Source: Gordonia bronchialis DSM 43247 (GTDB lineage Bacteria; Actinomycetota; Actinomycetes; Mycobacteriales; Mycobacteriaceae). Taken from it: a stretch of 64,000 nt of DNA. The DNA lies in the NCBI RefSeq assembly GCF_000024785.1, contig NC_013441.1:5084001-5148000 (forward strand), in the 5' to 3' direction. Position numbers and translations under genes: made by a program. Under the pieces are notes generated by a model that worked only from the letters and a program-made list of their open reading frames with translations, was not told where the DNA came from and made no database searches. Below, piece by piece: positions 1 through 24,428 of this stretch; position 1 is the stretch's first letter, and every line of letters begins with the position of its first letter.

Positions 1-1
1 G

Positions 2-502
2 GGTCTGGGATGGGACATCCGCACCACCACCGGCACCGACTTCGACCTGGATGCCAGCGCCATCGCGCTCGGCGCGAACAAGAAGGTGCTGTCGGACGCC
101 CACTTCATCTTCTTCAACAACCTGCGGTCGCCGGACGGCTCCATCGAGCACACCGGTGACAACCTGACCGGCGAGGGTGAGGGCGACGACGAGGTCATCA
201 AGGTCGACCTCAACGGGGTCCCGCCGGAGGTCGACTCCATCGTCTTTCCCGTCTCCATCTACGACGCCGACGCCCGCAGCCAGTCCTTCGGTCAGGTGCG
301 CAACGCGTTCATCCGCGTCGTCAATCAGGCCGGTGGCGCCGAGATCGCCCGCTACGACCTGTCCGAGGACGCCTCCACCGAGACCGCGATGGTCTTCGGT
401 GAGCTGTACCGGAACGGCGCCGAGTGGAAGTTCCGCGCCGTCGGCCAGGGTTATGCGTCGGGCCTCGCGGGGATCGCCCGCGACTTCGGCGTGAACGTCT
501 GA
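2..502 (+). CDS. terD: TerD-family protein, 5' end outside the window
   Basis: The reading frame is open from base 2, so the true start lies left of the window. The visible 166 residues form most of a TerD domain, a calcium-binding beta-sandwich of tellurite and chemical-stress systems. Two acidic calcium-site signatures are present: DFDLDASA near the window edge and [13 protein letters not shown] about 30 residues later. The tail ([13 protein letters not shown]...) is the usual TerD ending. An ATG at 86 is internal and would remove the first metal-binding motif, so it is not the start. A hairpin terminator follows at once, so this is the last gene of a rightward unit. Confidence 0.93.
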
Positions 503-527
503 GAAAGTTCACCCCCACGACAGCATC

Positions 528-560
528 CATGCCGCACCCGGCCCGTCCGGGTGCGGCATG
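528..560 (+). terminator. intrinsic-type terminator hairpin after terD
   Basis: A perfect 14-bp stem (CATGCCGCACCCGG with its complement) encloses a 5-base loop, 26 bases after the terD stop. There is no long T run, as is usual in GC-rich actinobacteria. Confidence 0.75.
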
Positions 561-620
561 CTTGTGCGATCGACACTGGTGCCCCTGCGCACCGCTCCTT
601 AGTGAAAGGCCAGCTCCACC

Positions 621-1763
621 TTGGTAGTACGCATATTCGGCATCTCGTTCGTCGTGACGATCGGTGCCATGATCATCGCGTTCCTGTACGGGGGCTGGCA
701 GGCGCTTATCCTGACCGTCATCCTCGGCATCCTCGAGGTCTCGCTTTCCTTCGACAACGCGGTCATCAACGCGACCGTCCTGCGTCGGATGAGCGAGTTC
801 TGGCAGAAGATCTTCCTCACCATCGGCATCCTCATCGCCGTCTTCGGTATGCGTTTGGTGTTCCCGCTGGCGATCGTGTGGATGGCGTCGGGCCTCGGTC
901 CGGTGCAGGCACTCGACCTGGCTCTCAACCCGCCGCCAGATGACGCCGCCTACTTCCCCAACGGTGACCCCAGCTACGAGACGATCATCACCGACGCGCA
1001 CCCGCAGATCGCGGCCTTCGGTGGCATGTTCCTGCTCATGCTGTTCCTCGGCTTCGTGCTCGAGGAGAAGGAGATCACCTGGCTGAGCTGGATCGAGCGT
1101 CCGCTGGAACGCATCGGCAAGCTGGAGATGCTCGAGGTGGTCATCGCGACCGGCCTGCTGATCATCACCGCCGAGTACATCGCCGCACCTGAGGAACGGT
1201 CGACGGTGATGATCGCCGGCGCGCTCGGCATGATCACCTACATCGCGGTCAACGGGCTCGGCGAGTTGTTCAAAGTCGACAACGTCGTCGACGACGAGGA
1301 CGCGGACCCCGCACCAGAGAACGCGAAGCGTTCCGGTGGTCCCAGCGACCTCGCCAAGGCCACCGGCAAGGCCGGTTTCTTCCTGTTCCTCTACCTCGAG
1401 GTGCTCGACGCGTCGTTCTCCTTCGACGGCGTCATCGGCGCCTTCGCCATCACCGCCGACCCGATCATCATCGCGCTCGGCCTCGGCCTCATCGGCGCCA
1501 TGTTCGTCCGGTCGCTGACCGTGTACCTGGTGCGCAAGGGCACGCTCTCGGAGTACGTGTACCTCGAGCACGGCGCCCACTGGGCGATCGGCGCGCTCGC
1601 GTTCATCCTGCTCTACTCGATCGGCACGCACGTCAACGAGGTCATCACCGGTCTTGTGGGTGTGGTGCTCATCGGCGCGGCCTTCGCGTCGAGCATCGTG
1701 CGTCGACGACGTCTCGGTGACGCCGACGACGAGGCTTCGACGGAGGTCGAGGCCAAAGCCTGA
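621..1763 (+). CDS. DUF475/TerC-like integral membrane protein
   Basis: This 380-residue polytopic membrane protein belongs to the DUF475 family, related to TerC, and is typically encoded beside TerD genes. About eight to nine hydrophobic segments are visible. Two related intramembrane motifs, EVSLSFDNAVI near residue 40 and EVLDASFSFDGVIG near residue 260, match the internal duplication of TerC-type proteins, where acidic residues and the FDN/FDG turn are thought to handle metal ions. A TGA at 603-605 closes the frame upstream. TTG at 621 is therefore the only start that keeps the first membrane helix, with a weak AAAGG 12 bases before it. Metal efflux or membrane anchoring of TerD partners is inferred from the family. 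Confidence 0.85.
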   Translation: MVVRIFGISFVVTIGAMIIAFLYGGWQALILTVILGILEVSLSFDNAVINATVLRRMSEFWQKIFLTIGILIAVFGMRLVFPLAIVWMASGLGPVQALDLALNPPPDDAAYFPNGDPSYETIITDAHPQIAAFGGMFLLMLFLGFVLEEKEITWLSWIERPLERIGKLEMLEVVIATGLLIITAEYIAAPEERSTVMIAGALGMITYIAVNGLGELFKVDNVVDDEDADPAPENAKRSGGPSDLAKATGKAGFFLFLYLEVLDASFSFDGVIGAFAITADPIIIALGLGLIGAMFVRSLTVYLVRKGTLSEYVYLEHGAHWAIGALAFILLYSIGTHVNEVITGLVGVVLIGAAFASSIVRRRRLGDADDEASTEVEAKA

Positions 1764-1775
1764 GTTTCACCGCAG

Positions 1776-1823
1776 AAACGACGATGGGTTGCGCTCTTCA
1801 CGGAGTGCAACCCATCGTCGTTT
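1776..1823. terminator. bidirectional terminator between convergent genes
   Basis: A perfect 17-bp stem (AAACGACGATGGGTTGC and its complement at 1807-1823) sits between the converging DUF475 and TerD-like genes. The arms carry AAA/TTT at their outer ends, suiting termination in both directions. Confidence 0.8.
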
Positions 1824-1828
1824 GGGGA

Positions 1829-2563
1829 CTACTTGCGGCCGGCCTTCCAGTTCAGGCCCCAGTTGTAAGCCTGGTCCACCGCGGATTGCGAGCCGCGGAT
1901 ATAGCGGACCTCGCGGTTGATGACGAGGTCACCGCCACGGTTCTCCAGCAACGCGATGGCGCACGAGATGGCGCCCTGATCCGACTCGTCGAGGCGCACC
2001 TCGATCTGCGGACCGCTGGCCGGGAACAGGGTGACGACGCCGTTGGCGGCCGCCCAGTTGGGTGCGCCCTCGTAGATGTAGGCGAAGATCAACACCCGAC
2101 GGATGCGATGGGTCTGGGACAGGTCGATGTACATGTTCTCGCCACCGGTGACCGACCCGGAGCGGTCGTCGCCGTCGAGGTAGATGATCGGCTGTCCGCT
2201 GTAGGGCGCCTGGAACGAATTGCCGAGTGCCTGAACGATTCCCTTGTCGCCGTCGGAGAACTCCCAGAGGCAGGCGAGGTCGAGGTCGACGCCGGTGGAC
2301 CGTTTGAACAGGCCGCCCTTGGACCCGGCGGTCCAGTTGAGATTGACGCGCATCTGTCCGGTGGCCGAGCCCTGCTTGGTCAGCGACACGCTCGGCGCCG
2401 ACTTGGTCAGCGTGACCTTGGACAGCGAGATCGGGGCCTGGGCCGGCGGCTGCTGCTGATACGGCTGCGCCGGGGGCTGTTGCTGATACGGCTGGACGGG
2501 CGGCTGGGGTGGTGCGGGCGGTGCCGGCTGCGCCTTCGGACGTTTGGTGTAGTCGATTCCCAT
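1829..2563 (-). CDS. TerD-fold (TerA-like) protein with proline/glutamine-rich N-terminus
   Basis: The 244-residue protein has a low-complexity N-terminus (residues 8-42) rich in proline and glutamine, with two copies of a QPYQQQPPA unit. A TerA/TerD-like beta domain follows (about 45-244). Recognisable features are VDLDLACLWEF and YLDGDDRSGSVTGGENMYIDL, which supply the acidic metal site, and a closing NWGLNWKAGRK. TerA proteins are diverged TerD paralogues that work with TerD in calcium-dependent stress complexes. The ATG at 2563 starts the tail cleanly. The flexible tail resembles the proline-rich linker of the double-TerD protein at 14.8-16.1 kb and may mediate clustering; that is inference. 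Confidence 0.85.
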   Translation of the reverse strand: MGIDYTKRPKAQPAPPAPPQPPVQPYQQQPPAQPYQQQPPAQAPISLSKVTLTKSAPSVSLTKQGSATGQMRVNLNWTAGSKGGLFKRSTGVDLDLACLWEFSDGDKGIVQALGNSFQAPYSGQPIIYLDGDDRSGSVTGGENMYIDLSQTHRIRRVLIFAYIYEGAPNWAAANGVVTLFPASGPQIEVRLDESDQGAISCAIALLENRGGDLVINREVRYIRGSQSAVDQAYNWGLNWKAGRK

Positions 2564-2672
2564 GGTGTGGTCCTTCGCTGCTCGTGTCGGATTTGTACCG
2601 TTATCGTCTGGCCGCAGCCTATACGGATGCGGGCCGGGTCTGTCGCGGGTCGCTGCTCGGAAGAATCACTCC

Positions 2673-4742
2673 CTATCCGGACGCATCGAGGACGATCCGC
2701 GCCTGCGGTCCGAAAGTCGTTGCGGTGTGCAGAACTCCGCGCTCGTCGCGCCGGCATCCCGCCACCCCGACGTGCCGTATCCCGGCGGGCAGGACGAAAC
2801 CGCCGTCGATCTCGTAGCGGGTGTTGGTCACCTTGGTCGCCCGTGCCTGCGGATCGGCCGGATCCGACGGTGCTCGTTCCGCGCCGACCACCACCATCGC
2901 CTCGGTGACGCCGACCGGCCAGTCGAACCGCAACCGACCGTCGGCGACGCCGCGGACGACGATGTCGGGGATGACGATCTCGGGCGCGGTACCTGGCACC
3001 GGTGACCTCGCATGCGCCGCGTCGGATCTCGCCATCTCCGACGACATCCCCGCGAGTACGGTGACGACGCCGTAGCCGACCGATCCGTCCCGCGGCGCCC
3101 CACCGTCGTCGAGTTCCGTTGCGGCAGTGCGTCCGACGGTTTGTGTTGCCCCGTCCGGCAGCAACCGCAGAACGCGGTAGACGACGCCCGGAGTCTCCGA
3201 CGCCTGCCAGCTGATCCGCCGGGTTCCGTCGCTGAGGGTCTCGACGCGGACGTCACCGGCGGGCGATACGCTCAGCCGCGCGGCGAGTTCGGCGAGCTCG
3301 GGATGGTCGACACAGCCACGTGCGGCGTCGGCAATCGCCGATGGATCGGCGATACCTGCTTTGGCCTCGGCGACAACGGCTTCCGCCGCCGCGACCGCCC
3401 GCCGGGAGGTCTCCAGGACGTCACCCAGCCGGGGTCCGCCCGCATCTACCGTGTCGATGTCGGACGCATCCCGCCTCAGCGCCTCGAAGGCGGACAGTGC
3501 GGCGACGTGGCGGGCGTGGGCCGCGTCGTCGAGCGCGTGACGCCACCGCTGTGCCGCCGCCGTCACCACGGACTCGACTTCCTCTGCCAACGACCGGATC
3601 TGACGGGTGGCGTCGGGATCGTCGCCGGCCAGCTCAGCGGCCCGTCGGCACAGCGCCTGGGCCGTCACCGGACGTCCCCGACGCAGCTCGGCCCGTGCCG
3701 AACGCAACGGTTCCTCCCACTCCCGAAGTCGTGGCGCCGGAACCGGTGCCGCGTCGCGCTGCGGTGGTGTGCCCGCGCCGAAGGAGGCGGCGATCTCGCC
3801 GACCAGCGCACGCGCACCGACCGACCCGAGCCCAAGCGAACGCGCCTCATCCACCAGGAACGCGAAATCGTCTGCCAGCAGGTCATCTTCGACGAGGACC
3901 GCCGCCCGTACGCGCGGCTCGAGATGTGTCCGCACCTTGGTGGTGACGGCGGAGACGTACGCACGGGAGAGGGTCACGTCGTCGAGCAGGATCTCCCGGA
4001 CGTGCACCAGGAGCTCGTCCACCACTGCACGCAGTCGGCCAGCCGGCAGCTCGCGTGATCGCTCCCGCAGTTGCTGTGTGCGCCTGTCGATCTCGGTCAG
4101 ATCGGTGATCTCGTCGAGGGTCAGGTGCAGCAGATTGAGCAGTGTCGGGGTGGCGTCCCCGGTCTGCAGTCGGTCGAATTCGGCCAAGAGCGCCGCGATC
4201 TGGTCGAGGCGCTGCGTGCTGAGTTCGGCAGGCGGTGCAGGAGCGGTCGCGGGCGTGGCGTCGTCGAGAATCCGGTAGCGGCGCAACCGGGTTGCGACCT
4301 CTTCGGGGGAGAGTCCACTCATCGCACCGAGATCGTCGAGACCGGCACGCTTGGACGCCGGGATACCGCCGTGCCGCTGCATGAGACGCTCGATCGCGTT
4401 GTCCAACAACTCGTATCGTCCGGCGTCACGCTGCTCGCGCGTCTCGCTGACGGTGCGGGCCAGGGCGGCCCGGCGGTTCGCGTACCGGAGCAGTTCGCTG
4501 CGCTGGGCGTGCTCGGACACCAACTGGCCCACCAGCACCCGGTACTTGGGGTGATCGCGGCTCTTCTGCCAGAACGCCCACACCGCCTCGATCCGCTCGG
4601 CCACCTCGGCGTCGGTGAGCGCCTGGACCTGATCGAGTGGAATGTCGTAGAGCTCAAACGGATCGGACGTTTCCACACCGCCACGGCGATCCACGGCAGC
4701 CAACACCCGCTTCCGATAGTCGTTGGTGTCCAACGGTTTCAC
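2673..4742 (-). CDS. large Hsp70-associated protein with C-terminal FN3-like domains
   Basis: This 689-residue protein has no assignment I can make with certainty. GTG at 4742 lies 4 bases after the Hsp70-like stop, so the two are almost certainly co-translated; a longer frame to 4820 would run far into that gene. The first 110 residues are helical and contain DPFELYD, a long helix, then DHPKY at 63-67, loosely like a J-domain with HP in place of HPD. The middle (about 110-500) is helical with coiled-coil character. The C-terminus holds two beta-sandwich repeats that look like fibronectin type III domains (WQASETPGVVYRVLR and DWPVGVTEAMVVV). Role as client-delivery partner of the adjacent Hsp70 is inference. 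Confidence 0.7.
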   Translation of the reverse strand: MKPLDTNDYRKRVLAAVDRRGGVETSDPFELYDIPLDQVQALTDAEVAERIEAVWAFWQKSRDHPKYRVLVGQLVSEHAQRSELLRYANRRAALARTVSETREQRDAGRYELLDNAIERLMQRHGGIPASKRAGLDDLGAMSGLSPEEVATRLRRYRILDDATPATAPAPPAELSTQRLDQIAALLAEFDRLQTGDATPTLLNLLHLTLDEITDLTEIDRRTQQLRERSRELPAGRLRAVVDELLVHVREILLDDVTLSRAYVSAVTTKVRTHLEPRVRAAVLVEDDLLADDFAFLVDEARSLGLGSVGARALVGEIAASFGAGTPPQRDAAPVPAPRLREWEEPLRSARAELRRGRPVTAQALCRRAAELAGDDPDATRQIRSLAEEVESVVTAAAQRWRHALDDAAHARHVAALSAFEALRRDASDIDTVDAGGPRLGDVLETSRRAVAAAEAVVAEAKAGIADPSAIADAARGCVDHPELAELAARLSVSPAGDVRVETLSDGTRRISWQASETPGVVYRVLRLLPDGATQTVGRTAATELDDGGAPRDGSVGYGVVTVLAGMSSEMARSDAAHARSPVPGTAPEIVIPDIVVRGVADGRLRFDWPVGVTEAMVVVGAERAPSDPADPQARATKVTNTRYEIDGGFVLPAGIRHVGVAGCRRDERGVLHTATTFGPQARIVLDASG

Positions 4743-4746
4743 GGGC

Positions 4747-6423
4747 TCACCGATCTCGGCGCCGCGATTGCTGCACCTGGTCGAGTTCCCGGCTGACCTC
4801 CGACGCCGACAGCGTCGCACCGGTTTTCGCCGTCAGGGTGAGCGGGATGTCCGCATCGACGTGGTGGGCGGTCACGTGCAGCACGCCGTCGAATCCCATC
4901 TCGAACATCACCCGGACCTCACTGCCCTCGTCGTAGCCGGGCGGGATGTCGGTGATGGCGCCCTCGATGAGGATCTTCGCGTCTTCGGGCCGCGGGGATG
5001 CCTGCTGTCCCAGCTGCTCGAGCACGGTCAGATTGATGCGATCCTGATCGGCACGCACCGTCCCGAAGGATCGTCGAACACGGATCGGCAGCGTCTGGTT
5101 GCGGTGCACCAGCCAGGTCGCCTCCAGCGAACCGGAGTAGCCGCCCACCGCGAGTACCCCGAAGCCGCGCGACACCACGGTGTCCACGGTGATCTCCAAC
5201 ATGCGGCGCACCCCGGCCACGGGCAGCGCGAAGGCATCGGCCACCCGCCGACACGCCTCCTCGACGTCGGCGGCGTCCGCATCCAGCGGCGATGCGCCGT
5301 CCGCCAAGCGGCCACGGGTGCGCAGGTCGGCCCCCACCAGGCGTTCGATCTCGAGTTTGTCGCCGTAGATCGCGGCACCCCGCGCGACGGCGAGGTCGGG
5401 ATCGGCCAGTTCCGGGGTGATTCCCACCGCATCTGCGATCGCGGCGGCGACCATCGGCATCCGCGACGAACCACCGACGAGCAGCACCCGATCGACGCGC
5501 TGCACACCGCGGTCACGGGCAGCCTGCAGGCACGACCTGGTCAGCTCGACCGTGCGCTGCAACAGCCCGCCGGTGAGATCCTCGACCTGAGGGCGGGTCA
5601 GCGTGATCGTCGAGCGTGCGCCTTCGTGGGCGACCACCACCGACGTCGAGTCCGCGTCGGTCAGTTCATGTTTCGCGCGCTCTGCGGCGATCACCAGGGC
5701 CTGTGATCCGGCGGAGTCGTCGAGCGGGTCCTCGGCGTCGGGGTTCTCCGCACAGAACACCCGCGAGAGGTGCAGCGCGATCCGCTCGTCCCAGTCGGCG
5801 CCGCCGAGCTGATGATCGCCGTCGACGGCGAGGACCGAGATCCGACGGTCGGCGAGTTCGATGACCGTCGCGTCGAAGGTGCCGCCACCGAGGTCGTAGA
5901 CCAGCACGGTCTCGTCCGGAGTGCTGCCCGACAGTCCGTCGGTCAGTCGGCTGAACCCGTAGGAGAGAGCGGCGGCGATAGGCTCGGAGAGCACCCCCGC
6001 GACGTCGATCCCGGCGTAGGTGCCGGCCTGGATCGTGGCGCGGCGCTCCTCGTCGCCGAAGTAGGCGGGCACGGTGATCACCGCGCGTTGCACCTGCTCC
6101 CCGGCGAAGGCGGCGTCGGAGATCAGCGACTTCAGGATGAGTGCGGAGATGGCCGGTGCCGACCAGGTCTGCCCGTGCGCCACGAACCGCCAGTCCGGGT
6201 CGCCCATGCGTCTCTTGACCAGTGCGCATACGTTGTCGGGGTCGAGGCGGGCCTGGCGTCGTGCGCCTTCGCCGACGACGTGGTCGGTGGCCGAGGTCAG
6301 CAGCACCACCGATGGTGTGGTGGGCGCGCCGGTGAGTCCGGAGATGACCTCGGGGCGGCCACCGGCGCCGATGGTGGCGATAGCGGAATTGGTCGTGCCG
6401 AGATCGATTCCATAGACGCCCAC
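4747..6423 (-). CDS. Hsp70/DnaK-like ATPase without a helical lid
   Basis: The 558-residue protein carries a full Hsp70 actin-like ATPase: phosphate-1 loop GIDLGTTNSA at the N-terminus, DLGGGTFDATV and the adenosine motif LLVGGSSRMPMV. GTG at 6423 places GIDLGTTN three residues in; upstream codons add no family sequence. After the ATPase there is an unusual alpha-helical insert of about 60 residues. A beta-type substrate domain (IEGAITDIPPG, VLHVTAHHVD) follows, and the protein ends soon after, without the alpha lid and EEVD-like tail of housekeeping DnaK (about 610-640 residues). It is therefore a specialised paralogue. It is coupled to the FN3-tailed gene and divergent from a GrpE-like gene 66 bases away. 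Confidence 0.9.
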   Translation of the reverse strand: MGVYGIDLGTTNSAIATIGAGGRPEVISGLTGAPTTPSVVLLTSATDHVVGEGARRQARLDPDNVCALVKRRMGDPDWRFVAHGQTWSAPAISALILKSLISDAAFAGEQVQRAVITVPAYFGDEERRATIQAGTYAGIDVAGVLSEPIAAALSYGFSRLTDGLSGSTPDETVLVYDLGGGTFDATVIELADRRISVLAVDGDHQLGGADWDERIALHLSRVFCAENPDAEDPLDDSAGSQALVIAAERAKHELTDADSTSVVVAHEGARSTITLTRPQVEDLTGGLLQRTVELTRSCLQAARDRGVQRVDRVLLVGGSSRMPMVAAAIADAVGITPELADPDLAVARGAAIYGDKLEIERLVGADLRTRGRLADGASPLDADAADVEEACRRVADAFALPVAGVRRMLEITVDTVVSRGFGVLAVGGYSGSLEATWLVHRNQTLPIRVRRSFGTVRADQDRINLTVLEQLGQQASPRPEDAKILIEGAITDIPPGYDEGSEVRVMFEMGFDGVLHVTAHHVDADIPLTLTAKTGATLSASEVSRELDQVQQSRRRDR

Positions 6424-6489
6424 GAGAGGCGATGCTAGCAGCGGAATGTGGACGTCGGGGCGTCGCGCACGCGCCGGTAGGCTCGGTGA

Positions 6490-6954
6490 ATGACCGAATC
6501 GGCGGAGCCCGGCGACCACGAGCAACTGCGTCTGCTGAGTGAGCAGATTCAGGACCTGACGCGGGTCGTCGCGCGACAGTCGCAGATCATCGACAAGATC
6601 GCCACCGCCGAGTCGAAGCGGACCGGTCCGAGCACCGACACGCCGCTGCTGGTCGAGTTGTTCGCCCTGTTCACCGACGCCGACACCTGCGCGCGGACAG
6701 CCGATTCCGAGCGTGAGGCGGCCGCCTTCGGGGCGCTGCGCGACGGGCTGGAGCGGCTGATCGTCGGACGCGACGGCCGGGTCGTCATGCCCTGTGCCGG
6801 TGACGACTTCGATGTCACGGTGATGGAGGTGGCCGACGTTCGCGCCGCGTCGGACACCGCGGCGGCGGGCACTGTCGCCGAACTGATCCGGCCGGGGCTG
6901 GTGGTTGCCGGTCGATCGGTCCGCCCGGCGATGGTGGTGGTCTACCGGGGCTGA
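6490..6954 (+). CDS. GrpE-like nucleotide-exchange factor
   Basis: The 154-residue protein starts with an acidic helical segment suited to a coiled coil (about residues 10-45). It ends with VAELIRPGLVVAGRSVRPAMVVV, clearly the beta-domain of GrpE, where a V-rich strand follows the R-P of the exchange face. GrpE opens the nucleotide cleft of Hsp70. Its placement opposite the Hsp70-like gene implies a dedicated pair rather than the housekeeping one. It is shorter than usual GrpE (about 180-200 residues) and the long helix is reduced. It ends 9 bases before the convergent AIM24 gene. Confidence 0.8.
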   Translation: MTESAEPGDHEQLRLLSEQIQDLTRVVARQSQIIDKIATAESKRTGPSTDTPLLVELFALFTDADTCARTADSEREAAAFGALRDGLERLIVGRDGRVVMPCAGDDFDVTVMEVADVRAASDTAAAGTVAELIRPGLVVAGRSVRPAMVVVYRG

Positions 6955-6963
6955 GCGCCCCCG

Positions 6964-7725
6964 TTACTGGTTCTGGCCGAGCTGGGCGGTGATTTCCTGG
7001 TTGATCTGCTGCAAACCGGGTACCGAGATACCCGGCAGTTGACCGCGGATGCTCTGCACGATCGAGGTGTCGTTGCGGACCTTCTCGCTGGACTGCACGA
7101 GAACCGTTCCGGCACCGACGAAGTCGAACTGTCGTTCCTCACCGGAGTTGATCCCGAAGCGGCGGCCGGCGGCCGCGATGAAGCTGTTGACCCACGCCTG
7201 GTCGAAGTGGTGGCTCGGCGACGGACAGTCGGCCCAGCCGACCAGCGCCTCCGGGTCCACCCGGACGGGCGGTTCGACGAACATGACCGGCCCGCTCGAC
7301 GACGCGAGGAATTTGCCGGTCCCGATCAACGTGAGGAATCCCGGCACGATGGACTGGTTGAGCGTCAGATTCGGTTGGAACGCCAGCAGATTCGACGCCC
7401 GGATGGTCAGGTTGCCGTCGTCGAGGTCGTAGGAGTTGATGTCGTAGCCACGGTCGCCGATGACGAGCTTCCCCTGCCCCTCTGCCACCACGAAGTCGCC
7501 GAGATGCAGTGGCGCGGAGAACTGTTGGGCCACCATGTGCAGCATCTGTCCCTGCAGTCCGTGCTGCAGGGAGGTGAAGTTCATCTGGCCGTAGTAGGCG
7601 ATCATGGCGCCCTTGGACAGGAACCAGGGCGCGTTGACGTCGATGACGAAGCTGTAGTTGTTGCCCGGGACGTTGTCGTCGGTCGGCAGTGTCGTCGGGT
7701 TCCAGACCGTGTTGAGTTCGCTCAC
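6964..7725 (-). CDS. AIM24-family protein 1
   Basis: This 253-residue member of the AIM24 family (TRAP-like beta-fold) contains the family pattern AMIAYYGQMNF near residue 45 and a long run of beta strands. AIM24 proteins are widespread in bacteria; their molecular role is unsettled, and the yeast namesake affects mitochondrial inner-membrane organisation. GTG at 7725 overlaps the preceding gene's TGA as GTGA, which fixes the start; the longer frame lies inside that gene. It is the last of three tandem AIM24 genes. The C-terminal tail (about 230-253) is helical and glutamine-rich. Confidence 0.85.
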   Translation of the reverse strand: MSELNTVWNPTTLPTDDNVPGNNYSFVIDVNAPWFLSKGAMIAYYGQMNFTSLQHGLQGQMLHMVAQQFSAPLHLGDFVVAEGQGKLVIGDRGYDINSYDLDDGNLTIRASNLLAFQPNLTLNQSIVPGFLTLIGTGKFLASSSGPVMFVEPPVRVDPEALVGWADCPSPSHHFDQAWVNSFIAAAGRRFGINSGEERQFDFVGAGTVLVQSSEKVRNDTSIVQSIRGQLPGISVPGLQQINQEITAQLGQNQ

Positions 7726-8426
7726 AGCTTCTCCTCCGATGCCTGCACGAAGACGACACCCTGGCCGGTGCACTCCAATTGCATTGCCTCACCGCCGCTT
7801 CGGCCGACATTGCGCCAGCTCATCGCCGACCGCAGTGTGGTGTTCAGTTGTCCGCCGGCCGCGACATAGGCCTGCGGGTCGACGACGACGGGTTTGTCCG
7901 GGGTGACCGGCAGATCGAAGACGCCACCGTGTCCAAGGATCACCGCGGTGCCGGCACCGGAGAGCTGGGTGGTGAACATTCCCTGGCCGGTCATCGCGCC
8001 GGCCGCCGCCGATCGCAGCGATCCGAGCAGTCCGCCACCACCGCCACCACCGCCGCCTTGCGAGGCCACCGATACCACCGATGCCTGCAGTCCGGACGTG
8101 TAGGCGAGCAGCCTAGAGGCCTCTACCCGCAGCACCCCGCCGACGGCACCGAGATCCACGATCTGCACCTCGATGCCCCGAAAGCCGTAGTGCACCACGC
8201 CGTTTCCTTGCGCGACCATCGTCGACTCGTGCTCACCCGCCAGTGCCCGACCGGCCATCGCACCGAATCCACCGCCACCGAATCCCCCACCACCCGCGCC
8301 GGCGATCTGATGCGGCTGGAAGAGAACCTGACCGGTATAGAAGAGCATCGCGCCGCGTCGGGCGATCACCGGGCCGGTCTGGCCGATGTCGACGGAGACG
8401 ACCTTGCTGTTGACCTTGGTGAACAT
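7722..8426 (-). CDS. AIM24-family protein 2
   Basis: A 234-residue AIM24 protein beginning MFTKVNSKVVSVDIGQTG, with the signature RRGAMLFYTGQVLF at about 23-36 and two glycine-rich loops (near 50-60 and 125-135) unlike its neighbours. The ATG at 8426 is preceded by GAGGGA at a good distance, and that ribosome site overlaps the TGA of the AIM24 gene upstream. The much longer open frame to 9338 is an artefact of high GC and covers another gene. Ends with the GTGA overlap to AIM24 protein 1, so all three are one transcript. Confidence 0.85.
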   Translation of the reverse strand: MFTKVNSKVVSVDIGQTGPVIARRGAMLFYTGQVLFQPHQIAGAGGGGFGGGGFGAMAGRALAGEHESTMVAQGNGVVHYGFRGIEVQIVDLGAVGGVLRVEASRLLAYTSGLQASVVSVASQGGGGGGGGGLLGSLRSAAAGAMTGQGMFTTQLSGAGTAVILGHGGVFDLPVTPDKPVVVDPQAYVAAGGQLNTTLRSAMSWRNVGRSGGEAMQLECTGQGVVFVQASEEKL

Positions 8427-8434
8427 CGCTTCCC

Positions 8435-9055: not shown

Positions 9056-9191
9056 TCCGGCCTCCTCGTTGTCCCGACGCACCACCGGCGACTCCGGGGT
9101 GTGCGACACGATGATCGTCGGCCCGCATACCACCCGCATCGTCGGTCGGCGCGTTCGTGTCGGGTTGGAAGTTACTCGATAGCATCGGCTC

Positions 9192-16079: not shown

Positions 16080-16093
16080 CGACGAGCCTCCGG

Positions 16094-16526: not shown

Positions 16527-16640
16527 TGGCGCGGACATGTATGTCTTGCGTGTGGTTTCGACACACGGCGGCTCGTCCCTCGCCGTCGCGGCTCAACCAG
16601 CAGATGGTCGCGGCGGCTCACACGGACTACCGTGGAGGAC

Positions 16641-17549
16641 ATGCGCGCACGACGATCGGTGGCCACGGGGTTCGGCGGCCTCGACGACTTCGAATTCGTC
16701 GACGCCGTTGTTCCCGACCCCGGCCCGGGTGAGGTGACCATCGAGGTGCGGGCGGCGGGAGTCAATCCGGCGGATCTCAAACATGTTCGGCGAGAATCGG
16801 ACCCGGACAAGCTTCCGCTGCCGGTGGGGTACGAGGTATCCGGCGTCATCACGGCCGTGGGTCCCGACACCCGGATCGGATCGGGTGACGTCGCGATCGG
16901 CGACGAGGTCCTCGCGTTTCGCGTCCGGGGCGGGTATGCGACGGCGTTGACCGTGTCCGCCGACACCGTGTTCGCCAAACCGCCGACACTCGGATTCGCC
17001 GAAGCGGCTTGCCTTCTGCTGGCCGGCAGCACCGCGGCCGACATGATGCGTGCGGCCCGCACCGATCGCGACGAGACGATCGTGCTGCACGGCGCGTCGG
17101 GCGCCGTGGGCATCGCGGTCCTTCAGCTCGCGCGCCTGCGCGGCATCCGGGTGATCGGCACGGCCAGTCCAGACAACCTCGAGAAGGTCCGCGCATTCGG
17201 CGGACTCCCGGTCCCCTATGACGCCCCCGACCTGGCGGCCCGTATTCGTGCGGTCGCCGATCCCTTTTCGCCGGCCGCGGCGCTCGACGCCGTAGGCACC
17301 GACGACGCCGTCAGCGCCTCACTGGAACTGGTCGCCGACCGGACCCGCATCGTCACGGTCGCCGCGACCGGACGCGCTGCCTCCGACGGGTTCGTGGCAC
17401 TCGGCGGTGGGCAACCGGAGAGTGCGCAGTTCCGCGATTCGGTGCGGCCCTTGCTTATCCGGCTCGCATCGACCGGGGATCTGCAGGTGCCGATAGCCCG
17501 GACGTTCCCGTTGGCAGAGGCTGTCGAAGCATTGCGCCTAGTGTCCTGA
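16641..17549 (+). pseudogene. NADPH:quinone oxidoreductase-like gene, 3' end split off by IS630
   Basis: The 302-residue remaining product is a zinc-free medium-chain reductase. It has GroES-like features (VRAAGVNPADLKHVR), the NADPH fold VLHGASGAVGIAVLQLA near residue 155, and a family-typical end at LAEAVEALRLVS. At codon 300 the insertion sequence supplies GTG TCC TGA and stops it. ATG 16641 has GGAGG three bases upstream. Reading on after the element at 18675 restores the family's usual GGHAGGKVALLAG ending in frame, so the gene was intact before insertion. The truncated protein lacks only the last strand and might retain some activity. Confidence 0.9.
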
Positions 17550-18672
17550 GTCATTAATTTCCGTTCGGTTGTTAGGCTAGGGAATGGCAACCCGGGGTCC
17601 GCGAGCAGTGGATATTGTTCTGACTGATGACGAGCGCCGTGAGCTCGAAGGGTGGGCGCGTCGGCGAACGACGGCCTCGGGTTTGGCGATGCGATCACGA
17701 ATCGTTCTCGCCGCCGCTGATGGCGGGTCGAATACTGAAGTGGCACAACGACTCGGCCTCAACCGAGGTACCGTGCGGCGATGGCGAGGCCGGTTCGTCG
17801 AGCACCGCTGCGAGGGGTTGCTCGACGAACCCCGGCCCGGGCGACCTCGAACCGTCGGCGACGAGCAGATCAAAGACCTGATCACCGCAACTCTCGAGAC
17901 CACTCCGAAGAATGCGACACACTGGTCGACTCGGTCGATGGCTGAGCATCTCGACATGTCGCAGTCAACTGTTTCGCGTGTGTGGCGGGCGTTCGGATTG
18001 GCTCCACACAAACAGGATTCGTGGAAGCTGTCGAAAGATCCCATGTTCACCGAGAAGGTCCGCGACGTCGTCGGGCTCTACATGAACCCACCCGAACGTG
18101 CCCTGGTGCTCTGCGTTGACGAGAAGACCCAGATCCAAGCGCTCGATCGCACCCAGCCAATCTTTCCCATGCTCCCGGGCACCCCGCAACGGGCCAGCCA
18201 CGACTACGTGCGCAACGGCACCTCCAGCCTGTACGCGGCGTTGGACATCGCGTCGGGCAAAGTCATCGGTTCGCTTCACTCACGGCATCGCGCAACGGAA
18301 TTCATCGGATTCCTCCGCAAGATCGACGCCGAGGTGCCCGACGAGCTCGACGTCCACCTGGTCATGGACAACGCCTCTACCCACAAGACGCCCGCGGTCA
18401 AACGATGGCTGACCTCGCACCCACGATTCGTTGTCCACTTCACCCCGACGAGCTCATCCTGGATGAACCTCGTCGAACGCTGGTTCGCCGAACTGACCAC
18501 CAAGAAGCTCCAACGCTCCACCCACCGCACCGTGAGAGCGCTCAACGCCGACATCAAAGCATGGATCGAGACCTGGAACGACAACCCCCGCCCCTACGTG
18601 TGGGTCAAGACCGCTGACCAGATCCTCGACTCCATCGCCCACTACTGCACACGAATTAATGACTCAGAACAC
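17541..18672 (+). mobile_element. IS630-family insertion sequence, 1132 bp, complete
   Basis: Terminal inverted repeats of 19 bp, GTGTCCTGAGTCATTAATT at the left and its complement with one mismatch at 18654-18672, are flanked by TA at 17539-17540 and 18673-18674, the target duplication of the IS630/Tc1 group. One intact transposase gene fills the element. Clean ends, intact gene and a host reading frame that rejoins exactly all indicate recent insertion. Confidence 0.95.
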
Positions 18673-18675
18673 TAG
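17584..18675 (+). CDS. IS630-family transposase
   Basis: The 363-residue protein has an N-terminal paired helix-turn-helix (EVAQRLGLNRGTVRRWRGRF near residue 53 and a second around 120). A DDE catalytic domain follows: the first Asp is in LCVDEKTQIQ, the second in HLVMDNASTHKT, and the Glu in SWMNLVERWFAEL. It catalyses cut-and-paste movement into TA. The TAG stop is built from the duplicated TA plus the first host base (18673-18675), so the gene has no stop of its own inside the element. Full length, no lesion seen. Confidence 0.95.
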   Translation: MATRGPRAVDIVLTDDERRELEGWARRRTTASGLAMRSRIVLAAADGGSNTEVAQRLGLNRGTVRRWRGRFVEHRCEGLLDEPRPGRPRTVGDEQIKDLITATLETTPKNATHWSTRSMAEHLDMSQSTVSRVWRAFGLAPHKQDSWKLSKDPMFTEKVRDVVGLYMNPPERALVLCVDEKTQIQALDRTQPIFPMLPGTPQRASHDYVRNGTSSLYAALDIASGKVIGSLHSRHRATEFIGFLRKIDAEVPDELDVHLVMDNASTHKTPAVKRWLTSHPRFVVHFTPTSSSWMNLVERWFAELTTKKLQRSTHRTVRALNADIKAWIETWNDNPRPYVWVKTADQILDSIAHYCTRINDSEH

Positions 18676-18866
18676 TGTCCGGCGGACATGCGGGTGGCAA
18701 GGTCGCGTTGCTGGCCGGGCGACTCAACCCTTGTCGCCGCCAGTGCGCACCGTGGTCTCCTCTGCCTCCTGGTGGTCGGAGTACTTCTCCGACGCCAGAC
18801 GCGGAATCAGGCCGCCGGCAAGGACATCGGCGATCTGCCGGGCCGAGAGTCGATGACGCACGGTGA
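18675..18866 (+). pseudogene. 3' remnant of the IS-split oxidoreductase gene
   Basis: In the frame continuing from 17540, bases 18675-18720 encode VSGGHAGGKVALLAGR, the conserved end of quinone-reductase-type enzymes. The frame then stays open to 18866, antisense over the aconitase 3' end. Either the original protein had a 40-residue overlap tail, or its proper stop has been lost; the sequence does not decide. Confidence 0.8.
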
Positions 18867-20748
18867 AGGTCTTGTCCTTGGTGACGTTGTGGACGTTGAT
18901 CTCGTCCTTGGATTCCAGTGTGTCCCGCAGATTTTCGACGTGCAGAACATCATCCTGGTCGATGTCGTCATAGTCCGACTCATCGTCGAACTCGACGGCG
19001 AGTACCCCGAAGTTGGCCAAATTCTGCCAGTGAATCCGCGCGAAGGATTTCGCGATGACGATCCGCAGGCCGAGATGCCGGGGCGCGATCGCGGCATGCT
19101 CACGTGACGAACCCTGACCGTAGTTGTCGCCACCGACGATGACGTGGCCGGTGGATTCGGCCTCGCGGGCACGGTCGGGATAGGTCTCATCGACGCGGGT
19201 GAACGAGAAGTCGGCCAGCTTGGGGATGTTCGACCGGAACGGCAGCGCGCGGGCGCCCGCCGGGGAGATCTCGTCGGTCGAGATGTTGTCGCCGAGTTTG
19301 AGGAGTACGGGCGCCTCGATCTCGTCGGGCAGGTCGTCGAGCTCGGGCAGGCTGGAGATGTTGGGGCCCTTGACCGGTTCCACCTTCTGCGCCTCATCCG
19401 CGGGTGGCGGTTCGACGAGCATCGCCGTGTTGATCGAATGTTGTTGCGGCAGGTCGAGTTCGGGATAGGCCATATCGACGTCAGCGGCCCAGTCGCGCGG
19501 GTCGGTGATGACTCCGGTCAGCGCCGACGCCGTGGCCGTCTCCGGCGAGCACAGCCAGACCGAATCCTCTGTGGTACCCGACCGTCCGGGGAAGTTGCGC
19601 GGCATCGTGCGCAGCGAGTTGCTGCCCGTCGCCGGTGCCTGCCCCATCCCGATGCAACCCATGCAGCCGGCCTGATGGATACGCGCCCCGCCGATCACCA
19701 GGTTGGCCGTGGCACCCATCATGGTGAGGTCGGTGAGGATCTCGCGTGAGGTGGGGTTGATGTCGAAGCTGACCTCGGGCACCGTCTGACGGTCGGCGAC
19801 CATCGCGGCGGCGATCGCGAAGTCGCGCAGTCCCGGGTTGGCGCTGGAGCCGATCACCACCTGCGAGATGGGCTCCCCGGCGACCTCGCGCACCGGCACC
19901 ACATTCCCCGGCGACGACGGTTTGGCGATCAACGGCTCGATCTCGGACAGATCGATGGTCTCCTCGACGTCGTAGCTGGCATCGTCGTCGGCGAGCAGTT
20001 CGATCCAATCGTCCTCGCGTCCCTCTGCGGCGAGGAACTCACGCACCGCGTCGTCGCTGGGGAACACGCTGGTGGTAGCGCCGAGTTCGGCACCCATGTT
20101 GGCGATCACATGCCGGTCCATCGCAGTCAAGCCGGCCAGCCCCGGGCCGTGGTACTCGATGATCCGGTTGACACCGCCCTTCACGTCGTGGCGGCGCAGC
20201 ATCTCCAGGATCACGTCCTTGGCCGAACACCACTGCGGCAGTTCGCCTTCCAGCCGGACACCCCAGATCTCCGGCATCCGGATGTTGAGCGGGTGGCCGG
20301 CGATCGCGAGCGCGACCTCGAGGCCGCCGACCCCGATCGCCAGCATCCCCAACGACCCCGCCGCCGGTGTATGCGAATCCGATCCGACCATCGTCTTACC
20401 CGGAATCCCGAAGCGCTGCATATGTGTGGGGTGTGACACCCCGTTGCCGGGTTTGGAGTACCAGAGTCCGTAGCGCGCGCAGGCCGTCCGCAGATAGTCG
20501 TGATCCTCCGCGTTCTTCTCGTCGGTCTGCAAGAGGTTGTGGTCCACGTACTGGACGCTGACCTCCGTGCGAGCACGGTCGAGTTCGAGACCCTCGAGTT
20601 CCTGCATCACCAGCGTGCCGGTGGCGTCCTGGGTCAGCGTCTGGTCGATGCGCAGGGCGATCTCGGAGCCCGGAGACATCTCACCGGATTCCAGATGAGC
20701 TTCGATGAGCTTGCGCGAGACATTCTGTGCGGTCCGGTTCTTCGACAT
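18724..20748 (-). CDS. acn: aconitate hydratase (putative-aconitase subfamily)
   Basis: A 674-residue aconitase-superfamily enzyme: citrate/isocitrate interconversion in the TCA cycle through a 4Fe-4S cluster. GSDSHTPAAGSLGMLAIGVGG (from 122), GARIHQAGCMGCIGMGQAP with Cys362 and Cys365, and the swivel domain GDNYGQGSSREHAA near 570 are diagnostic. It is shorter than the 900-residue AcnA type and matches the 640-680 residue group. The position of the third cluster cysteine, in the loop usually reading SCTNSS, is GSSANPG here (300-306), with serine instead. Start ATG 20748 has GGAGAC a few bases upstream. It stands alone, convergent to the split oxidoreductase. Confidence 0.88.
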   Translation of the reverse strand: MSKNRTAQNVSRKLIEAHLESGEMSPGSEIALRIDQTLTQDATGTLVMQELEGLELDRARTEVSVQYVDHNLLQTDEKNAEDHDYLRTACARYGLWYSKPGNGVSHPTHMQRFGIPGKTMVGSDSHTPAAGSLGMLAIGVGGLEVALAIAGHPLNIRMPEIWGVRLEGELPQWCSAKDVILEMLRRHDVKGGVNRIIEYHGPGLAGLTAMDRHVIANMGAELGATTSVFPSDDAVREFLAAEGREDDWIELLADDDASYDVEETIDLSEIEPLIAKPSSPGNVVPVREVAGEPISQVVIGSSANPGLRDFAIAAAMVADRQTVPEVSFDINPTSREILTDLTMMGATANLVIGGARIHQAGCMGCIGMGQAPATGSNSLRTMPRNFPGRSGTTEDSVWLCSPETATASALTGVITDPRDWAADVDMAYPELDLPQQHSINTAMLVEPPPADEAQKVEPVKGPNISSLPELDDLPDEIEAPVLLKLGDNISTDEISPAGARALPFRSNIPKLADFSFTRVDETYPDRAREAESTGHVIVGGDNYGQGSSREHAAIAPRHLGLRIVIAKSFARIHWQNLANFGVLAVEFDDESDYDDIDQDDVLHVENLRDTLESKDEINVHNVTKDKTFTVRHRLSARQIADVLAGGLIPRLASEKYSDHQEAEETTVRTGGDKG

Positions 20749-21104: not shown

Positions 21105-22877
21105 GTGATCACGGGTGTCGGAAAGTCCGGTTGGGTATTGGTCGACGTCGAGACCACCGGAACCAATGCGCGTCGTGATCGGGTCCTCAGTCTGGCGACG
21201 ATGACTCTCGACTACGACGGACGCGTCGAAGACGAGTACGCGACGCTGCTCAACCCCGGGTGTGACCCCGGTCCGGTGCACATTCACAACCTGACTCGCG
21301 ACCGCCTGCACGGAGCCCCGACTTTCGACGTCACCATGTCGCCGCTGCAGCAGATGCTGGCCGGGCGCACGATGGTCGCCCACAACGCGACGTTCGATCA
21401 CGGGTTCCTGGTGGAAGAGGCACGACGGCTCGGCGCGACGCTCCCGATCGATCACCGCCTGTGCACCGTCACGCTCGCTCGCCGACTCCAACTCGACGTA
21501 CCCAACGTCAAGCTGGGCACGCTCGCGACGTACTGGGGTATTCGGCAGCGCGCCGCCCACGACGCGCGCGACGATGTGCGCACCCTTGCCGAGGTGTTCC
21601 GCCGCAGTCTCGACCTCGCCGAGACACTCGGTCTGCGGCTGCCCGTCGTTGCCTGCGGTGTCAACTCGCGCGCCTTCCCGGACAAGGTCACTCGCGTGCC
21701 CTGCCCGTGGCGGGATCCGGGTCGGTTCGATCCGGCGGTGGGCCTCATCCAGGGCACCAAGGTGGCCATCACCGGTCCGACGACGGTCCCGCGCACCGAA
21801 CTGGCACGGCGGCTGTCGGATGCCGGCCTCGACGTCATGAACAGTGTCAGCGGCAAGACCGGCATCGTCATCGCGAACCCGGGCAGCCCGGATTCACGAA
21901 AGCTGCAGCGCGCGAGGCTCGACGGTACACCGGTGCTCGACGAGGGCACCATGCTCCGCCTCGCCGACCACATACTTCCCGGCACGCTGAAGTCGGCCCC
22001 GGAGACCATCGAGGTGGTCACCGTGATCCACCCACCCTCGTCGCCGCCGACTCGACAGCCCGCCCGACGGTCGGGCCCATGGGCTTCTCGCCGCGTCCTC
22101 ATCCTCGGTGGCAGCCACCTCGAGGCCACCGTGATGCGTTCGCGGATAGTGCAATTGGGTGCGGTACCGGCAATCAATCTCACCGCCGCCGTCACCGACG
22201 TCCTCCTTCTCGACGGCGGTGACGGTGACCCCCGGATGCCGCGGATTCGTGAACGTGCACTCACCATCCTGGAGATGCACCACGTCGACGCCGCGCTCGG
22301 CGTCGACCCCGATCCCGGCACCGCTGGAGTCGACACCGCCGGGCAGGGCTCGGCTGCGGCGATGATGTCGCCGGGCGAGGTGATCGACCTGCCGTCCGAC
22401 GTCGCGCAGTTCACCGTCAACGTGTCCTGGAGCGCGGAAGCCGAACAACCGCCCGAGGTCGACGTCGTCGCCTTCGAGCTCGACACGGCCAACCGGGTGC
22501 TCACCGACGACGAGTTCGTCTTCTACAACCAGCCGGCAAGTCCGGATGGTGCCGTCCGGCTGACCATCGACGGCAGTTGCGAGCAGGGCATCTCCATCGA
22601 TCTCCGGCAGGTCCCGCCGGATGTCGCCCGGATCGCGGTGGGCGCGGCGATCGAATCGCAGACCTTCGGTGACCTGGGCGCGCTCTCGGTCAGCGTCGAC
22701 ACCGAGGAGGCCGGGATCGCCACAGCGGTGCTGGATGCCGCGACGACCGAACGATCCATGATCATCGCCGAGATCTACCGACGCGGAGATGTGTGGCGGC
22801 TCCGGATGATCGGGCAGGGCTACGACGACGACCTGGGCGCGTTCGCCGTGCGCTATGGCGTCGAGGTCGACGACTGA
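21105..22877 (+). CDS. DEDDh exonuclease - two BRCT - TerD fusion protein
   Basis: The 590-residue protein joins four modules. Residues 5-175 form a DNA polymerase III epsilon-like 3'-5' exonuclease: DVETTG, HNATFDHGFL and AHDARDDVRTL supply the D-E-D-H-D set. Residues about 215-290 (GTKVAITGPTTVPRTEL) form a BRCT domain as in NAD-dependent ligases. Residues about 320-395 (RRVLILGGSHLEATVMRSRI) look like a second BRCT. Residues 415-590 form a TerD domain ending WRLRMIGQGYDDDLG. The TerD acidic cluster is reduced. GTG 21105 sits five bases after AAGGAGG; the longer frame is rejected. It links Ter signalling to DNA end processing. Confidence 0.9.
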   Translation: MITGVGKSGWVLVDVETTGTNARRDRVLSLATMTLDYDGRVEDEYATLLNPGCDPGPVHIHNLTRDRLHGAPTFDVTMSPLQQMLAGRTMVAHNATFDHGFLVEEARRLGATLPIDHRLCTVTLARRLQLDVPNVKLGTLATYWGIRQRAAHDARDDVRTLAEVFRRSLDLAETLGLRLPVVACGVNSRAFPDKVTRVPCPWRDPGRFDPAVGLIQGTKVAITGPTTVPRTELARRLSDAGLDVMNSVSGKTGIVIANPGSPDSRKLQRARLDGTPVLDEGTMLRLADHILPGTLKSAPETIEVVTVIHPPSSPPTRQPARRSGPWASRRVLILGGSHLEATVMRSRIVQLGAVPAINLTAAVTDVLLLDGGDGDPRMPRIRERALTILEMHHVDAALGVDPDPGTAGVDTAGQGSAAAMMSPGEVIDLPSDVAQFTVNVSWSAEAEQPPEVDVVAFELDTANRVLTDDEFVFYNQPASPDGAVRLTIDGSCEQGISIDLRQVPPDVARIAVGAAIESQTFGDLGALSVSVDTEEAGIATAVLDAATTERSMIIAEIYRRGDVWRLRMIGQGYDDDLGAFAVRYGVEVDD

Positions 22878-22902
22878 GCACGCCGGACCGACACGGCTGA
22901 AC

Positions 22903-23637
22903 CTACAACCGCCCGTCGAGCACATCCGCGTGCCCATGTCGTCGGCACCAGCTGACGATGTAGCGGGCGTGCAGTCCGCACCACCGGTAGACCGCGGATT
23001 GGGTCATCGGGAGCCGTTCGTCGTGTTCGCCCCGACGCTCGATGATCGGGCCGAGGTAGTGGCTGGTGACCTTGTTGGCGGTGTTCGGCGAGACCTTGGC
23101 CGCGCGCGCCAGCGACGCGTTGTCCGACGCCGCGCCGGATGCGATGGCCCCGGCCAGCCGTCCGGCGGTGTGTCCCCGCTGCCCGACGAACAGCTCGTAG
23201 AGCGGTACGCGGGGCCGGTCGATGTGAGTGTCGGGCAGTCGCTGCCCGAAGGCGACCGCACGGATGGCCGTCATCAGCGGCATCAAGCCGTCGGACTTGG
23301 CCACCACGCCCGAGACCTCCGGCCGCAACCGGGCTTCGTCGAGATGGTCGCGTTCCATACCGTGGCCCTGGGTCGCGAGAATCACCGGTGCCAGGCGGTC
23401 GTGTTTGCGCAGCGCGTCGATGACGTCGAGGCCGTCGAAGCTCCATTCGAGCTCCGGGTCGTTCCAGATCAGGTCGGCGACGACCACGTCGTAGCGGACC
23501 CGCCCGGCGACGGCGCGGGCGAACTCGTCCTCGTCGGCGGCCACGACCACCGCGCCACCCTCGCATGCCGCGCTCAGCGGCGGCGCCACGACGTGCCCCA
23601 GCGGGGACGCGACCAAGATGCGCAGACCTTCCAACAC
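22903..23637 (-). CDS. receiver-like response regulator with C-terminal HTH
   Basis: About 244 residues. The N-terminal half resembles a response-regulator receiver: VVVADLIW carries the phospho-acceptor Asp, VILAT the conserved Thr, and VVAKSDG the Lys. The acidic pair at the end of strand 1 is missing (RILVASPLG), so phosphorylation may not occur. A helix-turn-helix (NASLARAAKVSPNTANKVTSHY) follows near residue 180. GTG 23637 begins right at the receiver; GTG 23661 is an alternative. Divergent from the LuxR-like gene at 23808 and convergent with the TerD fusion, it marks the island's regulatory edge. Confidence 0.75.
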   Translation of the reverse strand: MLEGLRILVASPLGHVVAPPLSAACEGGAVVVAADEDEFARAVAGRVRYDVVVADLIWNDPELEWSFDGLDVIDALRKHDRLAPVILATQGHGMERDHLDEARLRPEVSGVVAKSDGLMPLMTAIRAVAFGQRLPDTHIDRPRVPLYELFVGQRGHTAGRLAGAIASGAASDNASLARAAKVSPNTANKVTSHYLGPIIERRGEHDERLPMTQSAVYRWCGLHARYIVSWCRRHGHADVLDGRL

Positions 23638-23807
23638 GTGCGCAATTTTGCCTGATTGGACGCGCTCGTGCGTAATCGCGCATTCAGATGACCGATTTGG
23701 GTGACCGGCGACCCAATCTCGACCTGTTCTGGTCGCAAGAACCGCTGACTTGCGCGTCCCGGTCCAGCAGGCTCGATGTCGACCCACTTCGACCTCTGGA
23801 GGAACGT

Positions 23808-24428
23808 ATGTCCAACCCCGCCTCCCCCCTCCCCGGACGTCGGCAGCCGATGGTCGCGATCATCGGCCATCGCGACATCTACGACACCGCACTGGCGTCG
23901 CTCACCGAACGCGCAGGTTGCCGCTTCGACCTCGTCGACATCAACCACCCGGACCGCGCGGGCACCGACTCTCCCGACGCCGTGATCGTCCGCTCGGTCG
24001 ACGGGCTCCGCCTGGCCAGGACCCGTGGCGGTTCACGACGCCTGCCTGTTGCCTTGCTGCACGCCGGGTACCGGCACGCAGCGATCGTCGGCGATCCCAC
24101 GATCACCGCTATCCCCGAAAGCGCGCCCGACGCGGCCGGCCGCCTGGGCCGCTTCCTGACCGGTCTCGTCGGTGAGGTCATCACCCGCACGCCCGTGCAC
24201 GTCACCGAGCGGGAGCTCGAGATCCTGCGCACCTACACGCTGGGTGCCACGTTGCGTCAGACCTCCCGACAGCATCAGATTGCGGAAAGCACTGTGCGCG
24301 AACACTATCGACGGGTTGCCCGTCGATATGAGGATGCTGGCCTTCCGGTGGGCAACAAGGCCCAGATGCTCCTGCGGCTGATGGCCGACGGCTGGGTGGC
24401 CTCCACCGGCACCCGTCACACGGCCTGA
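23808..24428 (+). CDS. LuxR-type HTH transcriptional regulator
   Basis: The 206-residue protein ends in a GerE/LuxR helix-turn-helix: TERELEILRTYTLGATLRQT, then the recognition helix AESTVREHYRRV. The N-terminal 120 residues are a degenerate receiver-like fold (MVAIIGHRDIYDTALASL) without the phosphorylation Asp-Asp pair. ATG 23808 has GGAGGA five bases upstream; a start at 23688 is possible but unsupported. It is paired head to head with the regulator at 22903-23637 over 170 bases, and both have eroded receivers, so they may act as a pair, perhaps responding to a ligand rather than phosphorylation. Confidence 0.8.
   Translation: MSNPASPLPGRRQPMVAIIGHRDIYDTALASLTERAGCRFDLVDINHPDRAGTDSPDAVIVRSVDGLRLARTRGGSRRLPVALLHAGYRHAAIVGDPTITAIPESAPDAAGRLGRFLTGLVGEVITRTPVHVTERELEILRTYTLGATLRQTSRQHQIAESTVREHYRRVARRYEDAGLPVGNKAQMLLRLMADGWVASTGTRHTA

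Follow-up and report, generated by a model that had tools for sequence, protein, structure and literature searches.

To our knowledge, the ter genes have gone without a mechanism for decades, and the gene theme to which they belong reportedly comprises a TerC-like protein, phosphoribosyltransferases (PRTases) and a lyase. We analyzed a window of 64,000 nucleotides from Gordonia bronchialis DSM 43247 (NC_013441.1, positions 5,084,001 to 5,148,000), the first 24,428 nucleotides of which carry such Ter genes and, beside them, an Hsp70 of its own type together with a protein that combines a J-like domain with an FN3-like tail (hereafter the Hsp70/FN3 pair). The closest described relatives are the Ter-dependent stress response systems (Anantharaman, Iyer and Aravind 2012, as cited in PMC5822837), which share with the locus TerD and, frequently beside it, AIM24; the AIM24–Ter association is already known in print. 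To these systems the window adds the Hsp70/FN3 pair and a GrpE-like protein. A second relative is the Hsp70/GrpE theme of the GAP1-N2 conflict systems, which, in the part of PMC7159879 that describes it, likewise includes an Hsp70 and a GrpE in actinobacteria, together with an FNIII protein with a DnaJ or TPR part that the J-like/FN3 protein may resemble, whereas the locus has Ter genes and no GTPase that we could see. The strings 'AIM24' and 'tellur' do not occur in the main text of that paper. With the housekeeping DnaK/DnaJ/GrpE system, finally, the locus shares the ATPase motifs, the beta subdomain of the substrate-binding domain (SBD-beta), a GrpE family match and a predicted J-like topology, but the window pair has HPK for the HPD tripeptide, a replaced Arg167, a linker insert of about 50 residues and no evident lid. 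None of the publications listed by literature searches joins this Hsp70 set to Ter, which is no proof of absence, as they did not cover Anantharaman 2012; those on 'SaeA' turned up nothing relevant.

The Hsp70/FN3 pair proved to be constant in the loci that we fetched, it co-occurs with the PRTase-like protein StiP, and the sites at which the J-like domain and the Hsp70 would meet have changed in concert. The comparison covers 75 named loci fetched by alignment of the FN3 protein, a marker of the chaperone set rather than of Ter; those that span at least 20 kb, 58 in number, are referred to as full-length. The FN3-tailed, co-chaperone-like protein (2673..4742, minus strand) is predicted to consist of an N-terminal J-like fold with HPK, a helical middle and two beta-rich FN3-like regions. 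Its closest named homologues come from Gordonia. Its FN3 label follows from homologues named PF25835 or Fn3 and from the beta-rich stretches 496-563 and 595-684 of a full-length model, which was used for secondary structure only (predicted local distance difference test score, pLDDT, 87.6; predicted template modeling score, pTM, 0.37); Pfam finds no FN3 domain in the window protein. The J-like domain was modeled with a pLDDT of 89.8, and a structural search returned J-domain, Hsp40 or HscB chains in 23 of the first 24 rows, the first row not so titled being the 12th and the next standing at rank 25. By sequence, no J domain was found, whether with profile searches of PDB and Pfam or with hhalign. 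HPK stands in place of HPD in all of the 70 loci, among the 75, in which the site was readable, so that the HPD tripeptide by which J domains are recognized is missing throughout. Furthermore, the 20 residues preceding HPx carry a mean charge of -1.5 in 37 sequences, as compared with +2.3 in 19 close DnaJ proteins.

The Hsp70 gene (4747..6417, minus strand; PF00012, 1.3e-90) was present in 75/75 loci. The core residues of the phosphate 1, phosphate 2 and adenosine motifs of its ATPase are invariant in 72 sequences, SBD-beta is present (2.8e-8), the protein stops where the helical lid would start, and the insert at the interdomain linker is conserved. The position corresponding to DnaK Arg167, which contacts HPD, is occupied by Gly in 42 and by Asp in 30 of these 72 Hsp70s, with Gly in Gordonia, Nocardia and Tsukamurella and Asp in every other sampled lineage. 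The passages of PMC13012618 on this contact describe DnaJ D35 meeting DnaK R167, and R167A with D35N as a suppression pair. As read from the sequences, the changes from HPD to HPK and from Arg167 to Asp or Gly, with the charge changes around them, present themselves as a paired alteration of the interface. An HPK J-like fold combined with an Arg167 replacement in the partner Hsp70 appears to be new, judging from a narrow look at the literature on HPK and Arg167. If true, it would constitute a natural rewired Hsp70/J interface, which the laboratory suppressor R167A with D35N only approaches. We tentatively suggest, at somewhat less than even chances, that the two proteins form a naturally orthogonal, lid-less Hsp70/J pair, insulated from the DnaK network and dedicated to assembling or resetting TerD/AIM24 complexes. 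Residue 64 of the Hsp70, a cysteine before a conserved KRRMG, is also invariant (72/72) and may be a redox or metal sensor.

The GrpE-like gene (6490..6954, plus strand), transcribed divergently from that of the Hsp70, encodes a putative nucleotide exchange factor that matches PF01025 with 29 bits against a cut-off of 25.8 and does not reach the NCBIfam equivalog cut-offs. It was detected in 58/75 loci, and the other 17 gave no significant profile match; the 11 GrpE-less loci of at least 20 kb all come from Frankiaceae, Virgisporangium, Geodermatophilaceae or a metagenome-assembled genome (MAG). A constant trio of Hsp70, GrpE and FN3 proteins was therefore rejected; what is constant is the Hsp70/FN3 pair.

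Every genome with the FN3 protein, 32 distinct ones in total, also has StiP. The genomes belong to three overlapping GTDB sets, namely an order set of 121 (FN3 matches with E up to 1e-5), a family set of 201 (1e-20) and a genus set of 59 (1e-20). The FN3 genomes with StiP amounted to 7/7 in the order set (base 38/121), 13/13 in the family set (100/201) and 17/17 in the genus set (34/59), with Fisher values of 2.0e-4, 7.5e-5 and 8.4e-6, respectively, and permutation within genome-size bins reproduced the association in 0/100,000 trials. Since relatedness inflates both the Fisher and the permutation results, an rpoB tree of 57 Gordonia was built, which calls for 7 changes of FN3 and 8 of StiP under parsimony. 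On this tree, a dependence test of the Pagel type gave p 0.014; among 995 simulated histories that ended with about as many FN3 genomes, 38 showed no FN3 without StiP. Within the genus Gordonia, a dependence of FN3 on StiP is thus moderately supported. The pair, so far seen only in genomes with StiP among the 32 checked, may provide a handle on the Ter mechanism by way of whichever Ter protein might accompany the Hsp70.

These results bear on the possibility that the grouping reflects chance or hitch-hiking, with accessory genes of large genomes gathered by transposon-driven rearrangement. Genomes with FN3 have a larger mean size (5.38 versus 4.84 and 4.58 Mb), a transposase and displaced dehydrogenase and aconitase genes lie at 16.3-20.7 kb of the window, and close linkage within Gordonia is shown in only 2/17 genomes; however, the association withstands both the size-stratified permutation and the tree-aware test, and Pseudonocardia, Geodermatophilaceae and a MAG show the linkage as well, with the genes in other orders. 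We therefore consider this explanation improbable.

The physical linkage between FN3 and StiP is uneven. In addition to the two Gordonia genomes in which the genes lie within 20 kb of each other, 8 have them far apart on the same contig and 7 on other contigs; none of 10 genomes of the family set outside Gordonia shows such proximity (far apart in 4, on separate contigs in 6), and 5/7 of the order set do, the other two being G040, with about 650 kb between the genes, and G082, with short contigs. Among the full-length loci, at least two of five Ter genes were found in 16/58, distributed as 10/10 in Pseudonocardia, 4/4 in Geodermatophilaceae, 1/1 in the MAG and 1/8 in Gordonia, and as 0/24 in Nocardia, 0/3 in Nocardioides, 0/4 in Frankiaceae, 0/2 in Tsukamurella and 0/2 in Virgisporangium. 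The gene orders differ: in Pseudonocardia, DUF475 directly follows FN3 (L033); in Geodermatophilaceae, a divergent TerD (TerDdiv) lies on the Hsp70 side, followed in four loci by three AIM24 genes; and in Gordonia, TerDdiv comes after FN3 in 8/9 loci, 7 of which yielded no other Ter gene. A Ter linkage that recurs in different orders argues for function. The original prediction of one island accordingly holds in so far as the pair stands beside Ter genes in several lineages, with proximity to StiP seen in only a few Gordonia, and its picture of one compact machine is not supported by the Gordonia and family-set distances or by the Nocardia loci. Apart from these Ter genes, a TerD-like stretch is seen on the Hsp70 side near 7.2-7.6 kb in three Pseudonocardia loci (L061, L056 and L083). 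In four Gordonia loci, an S9 prolyl oligopeptidase gene adjoins the chaperone genes (directly matched in L014, and in L018, L028 and L029 inferred from 89, 75 and 70% identity); PF00326 was matched by 5/77 scanned flanking open reading frames (ORFs).

The Nocardia loci also raise the question of a more general role, in which the pair would serve as an additional Hsp70 system against stress in general, selected together with Ter by lifestyle and without physical contact between the two. There, the pair sits among infB, rbfA and truB lookalikes, as judged by eye, and none of the 24 full-length loci, each covering some 10 kb on either side, yielded a Ter gene. Such a general proteostasis system is nevertheless quite unlikely in our judgment: TerDdiv adjoins the pair in both Gordonia and Geodermatophilaceae, on different sides, and no HAIR- or CIRCE-like heat-shock operator was found at the locus by pattern search, which gave no CIRCE match and a single HAIR match (0.87 expected) far from the locus.

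TerDdiv itself (1829..2563, minus strand) matches PF02342 at 0.004 with a score of 17.1 bits, short of the 25.3 that Pfam sets as its cut-off, and carries an N-terminal GIDYTKRP peptide and a P/Q-rich linker. Relatives were found in 24/75 loci, in 13 of which no more than 1.5 kb separates the gene from that of the Hsp70 or FN3 protein, namely 8/9 in Gordonia, on the FN3 side, and 5/5 in Geodermatophilaceae, on the Hsp70 side. A DY(T/S)KR peptide was seen in 17 of the 24 (Gordonia, Pseudonocardia, Geodermatophilaceae and MAG), with the remaining 7 not resolved. It is our guess that TerDdiv is a client of the Hsp70/FN3 pair.

The three AIM24 paralogues of the window (6964..7725, 7722..8426 and 8435..9055, all on the minus strand) exceed the PF01987 cut-off, with values of 3.6e-11, 1.1e-27 and 3.4e-29. 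In the order set, PF01987 occurs within 20 kb of StiP in at least 11 of the 38 StiP genomes, as compared with 0.64 expected if copies were evenly placed in 5-Mb genomes. The original prediction would have regarded the grouping as chance if Hsp70-like and AIM24 genes rarely neighbored Ter genes elsewhere; since the AIM24 count, the 16 full-length loci with Ter genes and the consistent presence of StiP all point the other way, a chance link of Hsp70 and AIM24 with Ter is unlikely. Elsewhere in the genome, near 3.93 Mb, a protein of 449 aa (L091:8609-9958, plus strand) fuses TerD to AIM24 through a proline-rich linker. The genome also encodes another large TerD protein, in the vicinity of a kinase-RCC1 protein (L090:2707-4764 and 6096-8618, both on the minus strand).

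The kinship with conflict systems suggests a further explanation, that the chaperone genes are a stripped-down GAP1-N2-type (anti-phage) system, clustered with Ter only as a fellow accessory defense module. As described in the relevant part of Kaur 2020 (PMC7159879), Hsp70 and GrpE together with FNIII fused to DnaJ or TPR occur in about 14% of GAP1-N2 neighborhoods, mostly of actinobacteria and firmicutes, and TerD is listed there among the nucleotide-binding domains of such systems; moreover, the exonuclease-TerD protein of the window matches the PADLOC candidate PDC-S48 at 6.1e-59, the best stretch being its exonuclease part. On the other hand, PADLOC gave no match for the Hsp70, FN3 and GrpE-like proteins, and no GTPase family was seen when genes of the island and its upstream flank were scanned with Pfam, or among the 25 commonest families of the 77 flanking ORFs of relatives (65 rarer families stand outside these 25). 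The assignment of the chaperone genes to the GAP1-N2 systems was rejected, as no GTPase was seen among these. The general Pfam scans of the island and flank also gave no match to a GAP1-N2 protein, with the existence of a Pfam model for it unchecked and the protein of 9192..10385 without a family. In addition, the co-occurrence with StiP at unlinked loci would not be explained by defense clustering. This explanation is accordingly unlikely. The Ter stress response and the GAP1-N2 conflict systems, treated in two literatures, are joined by the same Hsp70/FNIII parts.

We rate as an even proposition the fullest account of these observations, that a Ter stress-response locus lies beside a dedicated Hsp70/J-like-FN3 module that serves Ter. 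Under stress, the Ter enzymes would make a nucleoside-like compound, as has been proposed in the literature, and TerD would sense this compound or a metal, with AIM24 as its scaffold partner. The FN3 tail and the N-terminal peptide of TerDdiv may recruit to the Hsp70 those TerD/AIM24 assemblies that sit at the DUF475 membrane protein; from its family, the Hsp70 would run an ATP-driven binding cycle and, with its J-like partner, would be insulated from the housekeeping DnaK/DnaJ. The chaperone would build or dismantle the TerD assembly, and the GrpE-like protein, where present, would probably reset the Hsp70 cycle. The exonuclease-TerD protein could be a separate output with TerD as its sensor, and would not need to be encoded nearby.

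The gene families named by the original prediction for Ter, chaperone, AIM24 and metabolite functions were all recovered, with the FN3 label dependent on homologues and a model and the HAD label on a motif. The genes of 1-16,079 were called with Pfam and GC content by codon position, and the AIM24 genes were scanned as longer ORFs. Two Ter hallmarks are present, with TerD-family proteins and a TerC-like membrane protein, and with two PRTase-like enzymes and a CitE-like lyase in one operon. The stretch begins within a TerD gene (1..502, plus strand; PF02342, 7.3e-86), whose start codon lies upstream of the window and whose product (ORF L001:13786-14502) is the best-scoring TerD of the genome; the flank upstream is core chromosome, with a penicillin-binding protein, PadR and Ino1. 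It is followed by the DUF475/TerC-like membrane protein (621..1763, plus strand; PF04332, 6.5e-132; PF03741, 3.3e-15). Inverted repeats are found at 528-560 and 1776-1823, the latter, of 21 nt and 95% identity, lying between the convergent DUF475 and TerDdiv genes.

The metabolite operon starts with a protein that looks helical by eye (9192..10385, plus strand) and has no Pfam or NCBIfam match; a relative with 72% identity occupies the same place in Gordonia sp. ABSL49_1. The subsequent genes, all on the plus strand, encode a CitE-like C-C bond lyase (10382..11587; PF15617, 1.3e-116), a phosphoribosyltransferase with PRTase_2 and TRSP domains (11584..12876; PF15609, 3.2e-68; PF12500, 2.5e-36), StiP with a PELOTA RNA-binding domain (12873..14000; PF11202, 7.6e-106; PF15608, 1.9e-35), a HAD-like phosphatase (13997..14860), which is assigned by eye from a DLDRT motif near the N-terminus and has no Pfam match, and a TerD-TerD tandem protein (14844..16079; PF02342, 1.2e-71, in two stretches). 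The gene directions suggest several transcription units on both strands, namely TerD/DUF475 (plus), Hsp70-FN3-TerDdiv (minus), the GrpE-like gene (plus), the three AIM24 genes (minus) and the operon from the 9192..10385 protein and lyase to TerD-TerD (plus).

Beyond the operon, Pfam identifies the genes at 16644..20748 as a dehydrogenase, a DDE_3 transposase, which we take to be of IS630 type, and an aconitase, none of them Ter. The dehydrogenase and aconitase of Gordonia sp. ABSL49_1 sit at the opposite end of the island, beside Ino1 (L087:15030-20011), and in the window copy the transposase stands between them. The last Ter-related gene encodes a DEDDh exonuclease fused to a BRCT-like region and TerD (21108..22877, plus strand); Pfam recognizes RNase_T and TerD, and the BRCT match of 17.4 bits is below the cut-off of 21.3. 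This fusion was found in 11/59 Gordonia, all 11 with StiP (Fisher 0.001, not corrected for relatedness). It is close to StiP only in the window genome (1/11), whereas 4 others carry it at a great distance on one contig with StiP and 6 on a separate contig, where the distance is undecidable; its position in the window looks incidental. In view of the passenger DNA and this single case of proximity, the reading of the whole of 1-24428 as one machine was rejected. Directly 3' of the exonuclease-TerD gene, a regulator of the MSMEG_1198 type is encoded at 22903-23787 on the minus strand, above its NCBIfam cut-off.

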